From an uncultured Deferribacterales bacterium (GTDB lineage: Bacteria; Chrysiogenota; Deferribacteres; Deferribacterales; Mucispirillaceae): 64,000 bases of DNA. Below the pieces are notes generated by a model. That model was not told where the DNA came from. It made no database searches and saw nothing but the letters and a program-made list of their open reading frames with translations. The stretch lies in contig CANTXF010000063.1 of NCBI GenBank assembly GCA_947853665.1, positions 1-64,000 on the forward strand, read 5' to 3'. Position numbers and translations under genes: made by a program. Numbering within the stretch: the stretch's first letter is position 1; each line of letters begins with the position of its first letter. Of the stretch, positions 4,616 through 26,538 are shown piece by piece.

Positions 4616-5701
4616 TTAAAAGCCGTTTACAGCTTCGATAATTTTATCCTGCTCGTTTTTCTCTATAACTGGCGATATGGGGATGCTTAGTATACTTTCG
4701 TGTATTTTGCAGCTAATGGGAAACTCTCCCGCGATAGCGCCTTTGTAACATTCCTGCTTATGCGGAGGCACGGGATAGTGGATAAGGGTTTCGATACCTT
4801 TATCGGCCAGATATTTTTGCAGGCGATCCCGCTCGGAGGACAGTACGGCAAAAATATGATAAACATGCCTGCCTTCTTTGCTTTCAAAAGGCAGCGTTAT
4901 TTTATCGTTTCTGATATTTTCTTTATAATAGGCGGCGGCCTCAATCCTGCGTTCGTTATCCTTTTCCAGATACTTCAGCTTTACGTCCAGCATGGCGGCC
5001 TGTATTTCATCCAGCCTGGAGTTTATTCCCGGATAAATATTTTCATATTTTTTGCGAGAGCCGTAATTACCAATGGCTTTTACTTTTTTCGCCAAATCGG
5101 GGTCGTTTGTGGTAACGGCTCCGCCGTCTCCCAAACAGCCGAGGTTTTTTCCGGGATAAAAGGAAAAGCCCGCGGCGTCTCCAAGATTGCCGGCCTTCGC
5201 TCCCTTATGAAGCGCGCCGTGGGCCTGGGCCGCATCCTCGATAAGTTTTAAACCGTATTTATCCGTTATTTTCCTGATAGCGGAAATATCCGCAGTCTGC
5301 CCATAGAGATGAACGGTCATAACGGCTTTAGTTTTAGACGTTATTTTTTCTTCAATAAGAGAAGGGTCTATATTATAAGTCCTGATATCCGGCTCCACGA
5401 GAACAGGAACGCACCCGCACTGCGTTATCGCCAGAATGGTGGCGATGTATGTGTTTGCAGGGACTATTATTTCATCCCCGTTTCCGAAGCCGTAGCCCAT
5501 TATGATAAGGCGCAGGGCATCCAGGCCGTTTGCCGTTCCCACGCAGTATTTTGAACCGCAGTAAGCGGCGAAGTTATTACAAAACCTTTCATTTTCAGCG
5601 CCCAGCAAATATCTGCCGCTGTCGATCACCCTTTTTACGGCCTCATCCAGCTCGCTTCTATACCGTTCGTTAATTTTATGCAAATCCAAAAATTTTATCA
5701 T
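4616..5701 (-). CDS. DegT/DnrJ/EryC1-type sugar aminotransferase (FdtB/QdtB-like)
   Basis: This 361-residue PLP enzyme belongs to the DegT/DnrJ/EryC1/StrS family. It should install the 3-amino group on a dTDP-3-keto-6-deoxyhexose. Visible motifs are IVPANTYIA near residue 79, EDAAQAHGA near residue 155, and the PLP lysine in FYPGKNLG (K185). Directly upstream lie a hexapeptide acyltransferase and a FdtA/QdtA-type ketoisomerase, the same trio used to make dTDP-Fuc3NAc or dTDP-Qui3NAc. Galacto versus gluco configuration cannot be decided here. The dTDP-glucose synthase and dehydratase are not in the window. Confidence 0.85.
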
Positions 5702-5711
5702 ACATGCTTCC

Positions 5712-6194
5712 TTATGAATTCTTTTCGCGGACGCTGATTATCGGAGTTACATCGGGTTTAATTTCATTTTTGTACAGACAGTTAGCGGGAACATCCCTGG
5801 TAACTATGCTGCCTGCTGCTATCATAGAGTTTTCACCTATGGTAATACCGGGGAGAATGGTAGCGTTAGCGCCTATCGACGCGCCTTTTTTAACGACCGT
5901 TTTCATAAAAATGTCGGGATAGCGCTTCGAACGGGGAAATTTGTCGTTGGTAAAAGTTACGTTCGGGCCTATAAAAACGTTGTCCTCCAGCTCAACCCCG
6001 TCCCATAGCTGAACCCCGCACTTTACCGTAACATTGTTTCCGATTTTTACGTCGTTCTCAATAAACACATTGGCGCATATATTGCAGCCGCTTCCGATAA
6101 CGGCCTTTTCAAGCACTACGCAAAACTGCCAGATCTTTGTGCCGCGCCCTATATTTTTACATTGAACGTCTGACAGCGGATGAATAAAAACCAT
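5712..6194 (-). CDS. Hexapeptide-repeat sugar N-acyltransferase (FdtC/QdtC-like)
   Basis: This 160-residue left-handed beta-helix protein contains repeated hexapeptide turns such as [18 protein letters not shown] and [13 protein letters not shown]. It probably acylates the 3-amino group made by the neighbouring aminotransferase, giving a 3-acetamido-3,6-dideoxyhexose. The gene starts 7 nt after the fdtA stop. The G9 tract at 6205-6213 sits where a ribosome-binding site would be expected, and in one slipped frame this gene would be fused to fdtA. Confidence 0.85.
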
Positions 6195-6201
6195 AGAGAG
6201 C

Positions 6202-6633
6202 TTACCCCCCCCCTCTCTCCAAAGATTTTATAAACTCCCCATAATCCCTTATATATTCTTCCGGCTTATAATAATCGCTTGCGATAACCATCAAAACGCA
6301 GCCCTGAGAAAAATTGAACATTTCGCGCCACATATTTTTTCCGATATATAACGCGAATTCCGGAGAACTAAGCTCGAACACTTCCTCTTTCCTGCCGTCG
6401 TCAACTTTTATTTTGCAGGAACCGCTCACGCATATCAGCATCTGTTCAAGGCTTTTATGGGCGTGAAAGCCCCTGGGCACGTTCCGCTTCGTATCGTATA
6501 TATAATAAACCCTTTTTATATCGAAAGGAACGTTATGCCCCATTTCAAGGGCCACAAGGCTTCCTCTTTCATCGCCGAAAGATTTCAATTCGATTATACG
6601 GCAATTATCCACAACGCCTTCCTTCGGCCCCAA
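6202..6633 (-). CDS. dTDP-4-oxo-6-deoxyhexose 3,4-ketoisomerase (FdtA/QdtA/WxcM-like)
   Basis: This 143-residue cupin resembles FdtA/QdtA, which move the keto group of dTDP-4-keto-6-deoxyglucose from C4 to C3. The family signature [12 protein letters not shown] near residue 53 supplies the active-site histidines, followed by [12 protein letters not shown]. The last three codons are an uninterrupted G9 run encoding Gly-Gly-Gly before TAA, an unusual tail. A one-base loss would remove the stop and continue in frame into the acyltransferase gene. The gene is in a leftward operon with the O-acetylation genes. Confidence 0.85.
6205..6213. repeat. C9/G9 homopolymer at the fdtA/fdtC junction
   Basis: Nine consecutive C on the plus strand (G9 in the gene sense) encode the terminal Gly-Gly-Gly of the ketoisomerase. 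Only two other nine-base C runs were noticed in the window; the next longest noticed is C7 at 15951-15957. G8 would read through in frame into the acyltransferase, while G10 shifts into a third frame. Confidence 0.9.
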
Positions 6634-8002: not shown

Positions 8003-9451
8003 CTAAAACCTGAAGTATATAAAAGGATTATAGCTCGAATTAGCCAAAACTACATATACTATCAAAAAAGACGCTATCAGCACCGTATTCTGAACTATCG
8101 TAAATGGCATACCGACAGGCTTGTAAGAAAAGGCGTCTATCCCCTTAAACAGAGTATTTTTCACAATGGGAGTAGAACCCGCGCAAGCCGCGAGCAATAT
8201 TAAAATAAACGGCGCGCTCGAAAATAAAACGCTTAAATCAAGCAGCTCCGTGCCGGAAAAACCGAGCCCGAACATAGCGGCAATATATTTTGCCGCATAG
8301 GATATGCTGTCCGAACGGAAAATAACCCAGCCGATTATTACGACGCACATAGTAACCGCCCACCGCACAAATTTCAGCTTCTGCCATTTATGCAGGCCGG
8401 TGATTTTTTCAACGACAAGAAAGAAACCGTGAAAAAGGCCCCATATCAAAAAGGTCCAGTTAGCGCCGTGCCAGATTCCGGTAACGGCAAAAACTATAAA
8501 AAGGTTGAGATACATTCTGGAAACCTTTACCCTGTTGCCTCCAAGAGGGATATAAACATAGTCCCTGAACCAGCTCGATAAAGAAATATGCCAGCGTCTC
8601 CAAAAATCAGTGATGCTTAGCGCGATATATGGATAGTTAAAGTTCAGGGGAAACTTAAAGCCCAGCATAAGGCCAAGGCCAATGGCCATGTCGGAATATC
8701 CGGAAAAGTCAAAATAAATCTGAAAAGTGTAGCACACGGCTCCGAGCCATGCCGTAAGCGCTGAAATATACTCCGGAGTCTGGCTGAAAACATCGTCTGC
8801 AATAATCGCCATATTATTGGCAAATAAAACTTTTTTTGCCAAGCCTATAATAAATATCTGTAGCCCCAGCGTAAACTGCCGTAAAGAGATATTCCTTTCG
8901 CTCTCAATATCGGCGGCTATGCTGTTATATCGAACGATAGGCCCGGCCACGAGCTGGGGAAACATGGAAATATACAGCGCCAGGTTTTTAAAATTTTTCT
9001 GAACCGGCGCTTCGCGGCGGTAAATATCCACCAGATAGGAAATGCTCTGGAAAATATAAAAAGATATACCTACGGGCAGGGCTATTTTAAGAACGCTCCA
9101 GCCGTCAAAGCCGATGCCGGTTATAAAATTATTGATATTATTGACGGCAAAAGCGAGATATTTAAAAATAAAAAGCACGAGAACGTTGGCGGCGATACCG
9201 GCGGCAAGGATTTTTTTCTTTAAATTCCCCCCCCCGCATTCTTTATCAGCTCTATCTATATATATGCCGAAAAAATAATTCATTATTATCACGCCAAGCA
9301 TAACAAGCAGATACTGGGGGCTGCCCCACATATAGAATATAAGGCTCATTACGAGAAGGAACATATTGCGGTGTTTATGGGGCAGCAGAAAATAAACAAG
9401 AATAGTAAAGGGAAAAAAGCATACGAGAAAAGTAAAAGAGCTGAATACCAT
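8003..9451 (-). CDS. MBOAT-family O-acetyltransferase (AlgI-like)
   Basis: This polytopic membrane protein of about 482 residues should move acetyl groups across the inner membrane for polysaccharide O-acetylation. The MBOAT histidine lies in TGIWHGANW (H328), and the upstream motifs FDFSGYSDMAIG and NFNYPYIALSITDFWRRWH are characteristic. The ATG at 9451 is preferred over the GTG at 9460: it gives the usual MVFSSFTFL start and has AGGTG six bases upstream. A G9 tract encodes Gly73-75. Loss or gain of one base would truncate the protein early, so expression may be phase variable. Confidence 0.9.
   Translation of the reverse strand: MVFSSFTFLVCFFPFTILVYFLLPHKHRNMFLLVMSLIFYMWGSPQYLLVMLGVIIMNYFFGIYIDRADKECGGGNLKKKILAAGIAANVLVLFIFKYLAFAVNNINNFITGIGFDGWSVLKIALPVGISFYIFQSISYLVDIYRREAPVQKNFKNLALYISMFPQLVAGPIVRYNSIAADIESERNISLRQFTLGLQIFIIGLAKKVLFANNMAIIADDVFSQTPEYISALTAWLGAVCYTFQIYFDFSGYSDMAIGLGLMLGFKFPLNFNYPYIALSITDFWRRWHISLSSWFRDYVYIPLGGNRVKVSRMYLNLFIVFAVTGIWHGANWTFLIWGLFHGFFLVVEKITGLHKWQKLKFVRWAVTMCVVIIGWVIFRSDSISYAAKYIAAMFGLGFSGTELLDLSVLFSSAPFILILLAACAGSTPIVKNTLFKGIDAFSYKPVGMPFTIVQNTVLIASFLIVYVVLANSSYNPFIYFRF
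9227..9235. repeat. C9/G9 homopolymer inside the MBOAT gene
   Basis: Nine C on the plus strand read as three glycine codons (residues 73-75) of the MBOAT acetyltransferase. With G8 the frame meets TAA two codons after the tract. With G10 it meets TAA about 22 codons later. Either change removes the catalytic histidine region. Confidence 0.9.
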
Positions 9452-9667: not shown

Positions 9668-10987
9668 CTAGCCACCGGGCTTGGTATGGGACATATCTCC
9701 GCGCATAACCGCAACCGCATATCTTTCCAGCATTTCCCACACGATGATATCCGGCTTGAATTCGAGAATATCCTGCTTATAGGCCAGCGGAGACGTTCTA
9801 TAGAACCATATATTTTTAACCTCGGAAGCGCTTTCATATATAAAATTCTGCATTAAAACCATAAAAGAATCATGGAATATCATTATCTTAAGACCGTCCT
9901 CGTTGGACGTCCTGATATGCCCCATAATATTCTTTTCCCTGTTAAGGGCCTGTATCGTTTCCAGCTTAACCGGGTTATTTACGCAAAATTCGTTCGTAGG
10001 CGGATAATCGTACAGGGTTCCGCCCGTAAAATCTATTAAATCCCTGTAAGGGCTTTTGGCATCGCACCTGTTTACGCTATCAAATTCCACCGGCCTGAAT
10101 CCGTGAATCTGCTTTTTTAAAAGACCGGCGGCTTTCTGCCAGGCGAAATACGCACCTACCGTGTTCCAATGGGAATCCTCTTTATAGTATAAGCTGTATT
10201 GCCCCTTATTAGCCATGATCGCCCCGAAAACATCCGCCACCGGGGCGTAGGAGTGTTCCAGAAGATAGCCGTTTATACGCTCGTACGAAGAAACCGTATC
10301 GAGCCGTTTAATAAAATCGGGATAATATTCGGGATAAACGCTGGATTTATTAGGAGCTAAAATAAACACGAATCCGATGTTATTTTCCCTGCAAAAATCG
10401 TATACTTCATCGACGGTTTTCTTTAAAAACAGAAGCCCGCTATCCGTATAACCGTTTACGCCCTGAAAATTGTCGGCGGTATCGTCCTCACTATTATAAA
10501 AAAGCCAGTTTTCCAAACCGAAAAGGCCCTGTCCCTTAAGATTGAATTTATCAAGCATATAAGGTTTAACGCGGGAATATAATTTAAAAGCATCTCCTCT
10601 TAGAGCCACCCTGTCATCCACAAATAAGTTGAACTCGCCGGGAAAGTTTTCATGAAAAGGAAGCCTTCTGGGAAATCTGTTAAGCGTTCTTTTTTCCGCT
10701 TCGGAAATATCGCTTATAAAATCGGCTCCGATGAAACCGCCGAACAAGACGGTGCCTATTACCGAAATAAAAAACACGGACGCAAGGCGGACTTTGCCGG
10801 TTCCCGGCTGTCCGGATAATTTTTTAACGATAGCCGCAACGATAATAAAAAAAATAATAAAAACTATAAAATACGGCAAAAAACCGGCGTCTTTAAAAAA
10901 ATAGCCTATAAACCCGGACAAATGCAGCATGAAAACGAAATATGCTGAAGAAAATACGCTTAAAACTATAACGGCAAGCCAAGACAT
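9668..10987 (-). CDS. AlgX/AlgJ-like SGNH-type O-acetylation protein, copy 2
   Basis: This 439-residue paralog of the protein at 6665-8002 shares the same design: N-terminal membrane helices, then a periplasmic domain with FVILAPNKSSVYPEYYPDF, KEDSHWNTVG (Asp-x-His) and IFHDSF. Several blocks match the first copy almost word for word, which suggests duplication around the MBOAT gene. The two copies may act on different residues or glycans. A 216-bp spacer without a clear gene separates it from the MBOAT start. Confidence 0.85.
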   Translation of the reverse strand: MSWLAVIVLSVFSSAYFVFMLHLSGFIGYFFKDAGFLPYFIVFIIFFIIVAAIVKKLSGQPGTGKVRLASVFFISVIGTVLFGGFIGADFISDISEAEKRTLNRFPRRLPFHENFPGEFNLFVDDRVALRGDAFKLYSRVKPYMLDKFNLKGQGLFGLENWLFYNSEDDTADNFQGVNGYTDSGLLFLKKTVDEVYDFCRENNIGFVFILAPNKSSVYPEYYPDFIKRLDTVSSYERINGYLLEHSYAPVADVFGAIMANKGQYSLYYKEDSHWNTVGAYFAWQKAAGLLKKQIHGFRPVEFDSVNRCDAKSPYRDLIDFTGGTLYDYPPTNEFCVNNPVKLETIQALNREKNIMGHIRTSNEDGLKIMIFHDSFMVLMQNFIYESASEVKNIWFYRTSPLAYKQDILEFKPDIIVWEMLERYAVAVMRGDMSHTKPGG

Positions 10988-26362: not shown

Positions 26363-26518
26363 TCATAACCACGCAGGCTGCCCGAGCGGCAAGGCGTTGT
26401 TCAGGCTGCAATAAGCCTGCACGGCTTGCATAAACGGCGCGGAATAGGAGCCGCAATTATTTGCAGCAGCCCTTACCGTCAATGAAGCCGCGATAAAAAC
26501 CGCTAATAGTATTGACAT
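26363..26518 (-). CDS. Possible 51-residue secreted peptide
   Basis: A small leftward frame starts at ATG 26518. It encodes MSILLAVFIAASLTVRAAA, which resembles a short signal peptide, then about 32 residues with two cysteines. The G9 tract lies two bases upstream of the ATG. No family is recognised and the lack of a well-spaced ribosome site makes it doubtful. It may be chance. Confidence 0.2.
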   Translation of the reverse strand: MSILLAVFIAASLTVRAAANNCGSYSAPFMQAVQAYCSLNNALPLGQPAWL

Positions 26519-26538
26519 TACCCCCCCCCGTGTAAAAT
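26512..26538 (+). promoter_or_regulatory. Promoter-like sequence with a C9 spacer
   Basis: TTGACA at 26512-26517 and TAAAAT at 26533-26538 flank a 15-bp spacer that contains nine consecutive C (26521-26529). Tract expansion by two bases would bring the spacer to 17 bp. The arrangement resembles the poly-C spacer control of opc in Neisseria. No plus-strand ORF follows before obgE at 26743, so the transcript could be a leader or small RNA. Confidence 0.4.
26521..26529. repeat. C9 homopolymer in the rpmA-obgE spacer
   Basis: Nine consecutive C, the same length as the two tracts in the glycan cluster. It lies between -35-like and -10-like hexamers on the plus strand and directly upstream of a possible small minus-strand ORF. 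Confidence 0.9.

Follow-up and report, generated by a model that had tools for sequence, protein, structure and literature searches.

Slipped-strand mispairing is a known process in homopolymeric tracts, and poly-C/G runs in promoter spacers act as switches in Bordetella fim and in Neisseria porA and opc. Phase variation is equally established for the poly-G tracts of Campylobacter, 53% of which have a length of 9 and 26% a length of 10 according to the PhasomeIt survey (PMC6321876), and C. jejuni is without functional mismatch repair (PMC8355987). A review from 2025 describes core phasomes as mainly comprising surface structures and raises as an open question that genomes rich in phase-variable genes are apparently restricted to pathogens (PMC11868660). 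The Mucispirillaceae have a sole cultured species, M. schaedleri (PMC12887300). Loy et al. reported that its DMSO/TMAO/tetrathionate-type reductase system is upregulated in inflammation, and phase variation is unmentioned in their text (PMC5285517). In the open-licence literature we found no paper linking Mucispirillum or the Deferribacterota with phase variation, which is the basis of our claim to novelty.

The window, the 64,000-nucleotide stretch of DNA analyzed here, is part of a 2.43 Mb, 68-contig assembly (G000) that represents a genus of the Mucispirillaceae, order Deferribacterales, with about 49% GC. The order is placed through G015, a genome from the same order, one contig of which is the Calditerrivibrio nitroreducens plasmid NC_014749.1 at 100% identity. 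Inspection of its sequence shows a C9 run on the plus strand at 9227–9235, that is, G9 on the minus strand. This run had been proposed to be a contingency tract at codons 73–75 of a gene for a membrane-bound O-acyltransferase (MBOAT), upstream of its catalytic H328, and it is found in frame at exactly this site. The gene and its neighbors are the following:

9668..10987, minus strand: second AlgX/AlgJ-like SGNH protein, upstream of the MBOAT gene (PF16822, E=1e-11)
8003..9451, minus strand: AlgI/DltB-like MBOAT O-acyltransferase, 482 aa from ATG (PF03062, E=2e-32; DltB 6bug, E=6e-27)
9227..9235, minus strand: G9 run, putative contingency tract, codons 73–75 of the MBOAT gene (Gly-Gly-Gly), located in a charged loop that connects predicted transmembrane helices
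6665..8002, minus strand: AlgX/AlgJ-like SGNH acetyltransferase partner, directly downstream of the MBOAT gene (PF16822, E=1e-19)
6202..6633, minus strand: FdtA/WxcM-type dTDP-sugar ketoisomerase, its final codons formed by a second G9 tract (PF05523, E=3e-53)
6205..6213, minus strand: second G9 tract at the FdtA 3' end, immediately preceding TAA, with the next start 11 bases further on
5712..6194, minus strand: hexapeptide sugar acyltransferase (PF00132)
4616..5701, minus strand: DegT/DnrJ-type sugar aminotransferase (PF01041, E=3e-108)

At the assembled length of G9 the MBOAT frame is open (ON) and contains a catalytic-type histidine, His328, within GIWHG, which aligns to the WHG of the solved DltB (6bug). 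The tract lies past the second hydrophobic segment. An automatic ORF listing also offers a GTG start 9 bases upstream of the ATG at 9451, giving 485 aa, but we prefer the ATG because the orthologues begin at MVFSSF. With eight Gs the product shrinks to 76 aa with the stop at codon 77, a TAA that is the second codon after the tract, just as predicted; with ten it reaches 96 aa and stops about 21 codons beyond the tract, within a codon of the 22 originally given. Since the tract precedes the catalytic domain, an early stop removes this domain entirely. A change by one unit thus separates the full-length frame from an early stop, as in a phase-variable locus based on simple sequence repeats. In the G8 state, an ATG just upstream of the tract would share the frame of the remaining gene, and this state could in this way leak an N-terminally truncated MBOAT.

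The combination of an MBOAT domain, a histidine in GxWHG and PF16822 SGNH proteins encoded on both sides is that of AlgI-type systems, and the genes for FdtA, the hexapeptide acyltransferase and the DegT aminotransferase follow downstream on the same strand with small gaps. The natural reading of this gene order is an AlgI-type O-acylation machine within an amino-sugar glycan locus, its substrate presumably being an O-acetylated polysaccharide. The domain matches and the dTDP-sugar surroundings hence agree with the earlier assignment of the target as a surface-glycan gene. The orthologue of the second tract, at the 3' end of FdtA, has G10 in the relative G002, adding 16 codons, and G9 in G008 and G011; a change in its length would give a different C-terminus and might affect translational coupling.

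The MBOAT tract is one of about sixty such sites in the genome, which extends the original prediction beyond a single site. Across the whole of G000 there are 11 runs of G7, 9 of G8, 60 of G9, 3 of G10 and 1 of G11, so that 60 of the 64 runs of at least 9 have exactly this length. The window mirrors this distribution, with 291, 53, 9, 1 and 0 runs of lengths 4 to 8 and then 3 of length 9. A Markov estimate, derived from the window itself and inflated by inclusion of the tracts, predicts only about 9–15 runs of at least 9 per genome (Poisson P < 1e-20 against the observed number). Base composition cannot account for a dip at 7–8 with a peak right after it at 9. G002, a complete single-contig relative of 2,347,083 bp with 31% GC in the fetched loci, has 5, 2, 6, 32, 8 and 2 runs of lengths 6 to 11, and in these genomes a tract is most often 9 long, in open and in broken genes alike. 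Among the other genomes compared, overlapping G 9-mers number 2–55 in genus g3 of the same family, presumably Mucispirillum (loci with 25–31% GC), 0–36 in genus g2, 0–417 in the termite-gut-type family f4 and 0–9 in the remaining families. One f4 genome of termite-gut type (G037) has long poly-G tracts of 9–23 (loci L239–L244); at L242, three near-identical paralogues have runs of 14, 11 and 9 Gs, and one of the three is out of frame.

What do these tracts target? The most conspicuous group in G000 are 12 Tat-exported, lipobox-bearing molybdopterin reductases, each with a G9 or G10 tract near its N-terminus:

Contigs C5, C7, C8, C26, C28, C46, C48 (two), C52, C56, C57 and C58 of G000: 12 reductases, loci L139–L141, L159, L161, L171–L173, L175 and L178–L180

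At the assembled tract length six of them are ON and six are OFF, that is, out of frame. The proteins are 880–1260 aa long, and all 12 contain a twin-arginine RRxF motif and a GCS (GCSK) lipobox. In 11 of the 12 the lipobox is followed by the tract and then by the HNCGG(x)C segment of the iron-sulfur domain, the typical layout being SRRGFVKG...YGCSKDDGGEIIY[G9]...HNCGGRC; in the remaining one, at C48:1905, the tract falls inside the signal peptide. A representative matches Molybdopterin (PF00384), Molydop_binding (PF01568) and TAT_signal (PF10518) and resembles DMSO/TMAO reductases by sequence; with a molybdopterin domain and a twin-arginine signal, these proteins fit Tat molybdoenzymes of the DMSO-reductase family. 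Family and export signal suggest a respiratory role. The same layout occurs in Mucispirillum, with one ON and three OFF in G002, two and four in G008, and two and three in G011. Matches to PF00384 are at least twice as numerous in G000 (28) as in other Mucispirillaceae (3–13). Further tracts are located in genes for methyl-accepting chemotaxis proteins, an Ig-like-repeat protein, a sulfatase-fold transferase, glycosyltransferases, ATP-grasp proteins and c-type cytochromes, and some others fall outside any convincing gene or promoter. ON/OFF calls made from ORFs across the tracts at large are approximate, as some chance ORFs are included. Taken together, the G-runs resemble an array of on/off switches flipped at random, with the surface coat and respiratory enzymes under their control.

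A second kind of site is found between genes. In G000, G002, G008 and G011 combined, 23 of 75 intergenic tracts are located between a near-consensus TTGACA and a TATAAT, compared with 0.59 predicted by shuffling the flanks; among 118 genic tracts this geometry does not occur. The part of the spacer outside the tract measures 6 bases in 21 of the 23, so that C9, C10 and C11 result in spacers of 15, 16 and 17 bp; the optimal promoter spacer is 17 bp. The genes behind these tracts mainly encode small surface lipoproteins and mostly start 37–60 bases downstream. A small lipoprotein family (MKK...GCADD...) recurs behind promoter-type tracts of Mucispirillum (L230, L272, L281, L288, L314 and L323), and its member at L230 has no Pfam match. 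The window contains one site of this type:

26512..26538, plus strand: promoter-like site TTGACA-TTA-C9-GTG-TAAAAT with C9 at 26521–26529 in a spacer of 15

About 140 bases beyond this site come a second promoter-like site and a gene for an Obg-type GTPase, and an Rfam scan of the window gave no match for an RNA behind the C9 site.

Tract lengths can be compared between relatives, although this relies on one assembly per species, mostly metagenome-assembled genomes. G008 and G011, which are 97% identical over the MBOAT locus, differ in length at 5 of 22 homologous tracts. In two of the five, a single G cleanly separates an open frame from a broken one: L276 is open with G9 (18+351 codons) whereas L292 is broken with G10, the flanks being 90.6% identical, and L260, a radical SAM gene, is open with G9 (26+316 codons) whereas L309 is broken with G10, with flanks 86.2% identical. 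The other three are a substitution at the tract edge, an apparent comparison of paralogues and a compound change. Between G011 and G002, 8 of 14 shared tracts differ in length. Similarly, a reductase orthologue is broken with G8 in G008 (L279) and open with G9 in G002 (L236), and a second, paralogous MBOAT, in which G9 lies mid-gene, has an open frame in G008 but a frameshift in G009.

At the MBOAT gene itself, the tract is kept at the orthologous site in four of six orthologues from species of the sister genus Mucispirillum: G002, G008, G010 and G011 carry G9 (GGGGGGGGG) at identical codons, the GC content of these genes being 29–31%. Because the same-codon G9 occurs in both, it must predate the split of two genera that are some 20 GC points apart. 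Could it simply be a static codon run without any switching, required for three glycines in the loop and kept as Gs by chance or codon preference? All five tract-bearing orthologues, G000 included, are G9 and open, each seen as one consensus per species, as expected of such a run. This is not decisive against switching, since every tract has 9 as its most frequent length. Moreover, G013 has an eroded version of the tract, GGTGGGGAG, and G014 lacks it, and these two orthologues (GGE; ASAAN) indicate that the glycines are dispensable. GGG is also a minority glycine codon, accounting for 8.8% of Gly codons outside the tracts in G002, and a simple glycine requirement for the nine Gs was rejected on these two grounds. 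As the same exact G9 recurs in promoters and in out-of-frame genes, where it encodes no glycine, we regard a static run as unlikely.

Homopolymers can also cause transcriptional slippage. Polymerase or ribosome slippage at G9 would yield a mixture of full-length and truncated protein, and regulation would then not be genetic; half of the reductases being out of frame at the tract while their long downstream frames are intact would be in line with this. Such an RNA-level effect leaves the promoter-spacer tracts and the DNA length differences between close relatives unexplained, which makes it an improbable account. Least plausible is an artefact of assembly or base calling at homopolymers. G000 consists of 68 contigs and several relatives are fragmented as well, but the same-codon G9 is present in five independent assemblies, one of them a single contig, and an artefact would not give a peak at 9 with a dip at 7–8.

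With the peak at G9, its conservation in orthologues of about 30% GC, the length and ON/OFF differences among relatives and the tracts in promoter spacers, the original reading as a slipped-strand contingency tract is well supported. The MBOAT tract is very probably a slipped-strand poly-G contingency locus that would toggle surface-polysaccharide O-acylation within a genome-wide phase-variation system of the Mucispirillaceae. That this particular gene switches is suggested by its membership in the tract set. Slippage as the mechanism and a benefit to the cell would fit the same picture: slipped-strand mispairing during replication would add or remove a G, and the frame would move between the intact 482 aa (G9, G12) and products of 76–96 aa that end past the first two membrane helices. 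Cells would thereby turn O-acylation of their surface polysaccharide on and off at random. As there is no gap to the gene for the AlgX-like partner, an early stop may also reduce its expression through polarity. The MBOAT locus would be one of about 60 in a system with two modes, namely frame switches at coding tracts (glycan enzymes, Tat lipoprotein molybdopterin reductases, chemoreceptors, large lipoproteins) and altered -35/-10 spacing in promoters of surface lipoproteins. Loss of mismatch repair was considered as a cause of the tracts and rejected, MutS1 and MutL being present and full length in G000 and most relatives; because both are intact, slippage may be slower than in Campylobacter.

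If so, the Mucispirillaceae may well bet-hedge their respiration, an interpretation we favor with some reserve: reductases would be switched individually by poly-G alongside chemoreceptors, surface lipoproteins and glycan enzymes including the MBOAT, and a clonal gut population would be a mosaic of electron-acceptor and surface repertoires. A further caution is that reductase and glycan genes appearing 'broken' in these genomes may represent OFF alleles and not pseudogenes. Here, a large phasome is found in gut symbionts, across two genera at about 50% and 30% GC, and its largest coding target class appears to be respiratory. As M. schaedleri is available in culture and in wide use in mouse models, the claim of phase variation is testable at once.

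How does this locus compare with known systems? As in AlgI/AlgX-type polysaccharide O-acetylation, an MBOAT with a GxWHG histidine adjoins AlgX-like SGNH proteins. The present locus differs by its intragenic contingency tract in the MBOAT gene, its two SGNH partners and the dTDP-amino-sugar genes nearby, and its substrate is a predicted one. The intergenic sites resemble Bordetella fim and Neisseria porA/opc in that a tract between -35 and -10 sets the spacer by its length, but they share a template of 6 non-tract bases and drive a small-lipoprotein family. A further parallel is Campylobacter, where the tracts are likewise poly-G, mostly in ORFs, peak at 9, have glycan targets and are kept as core tracts between strains (PMC6321876). 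Unlike C. jejuni (PMC8355987), the bacteria described here, which belong to a different phylum, possess MutS1 and MutL. Their peak is almost wholly at 9 (60 of 73 runs of at least 8), Tat molybdoenzyme reductases are a main target class, and many of their tracts are located in promoter spacers.
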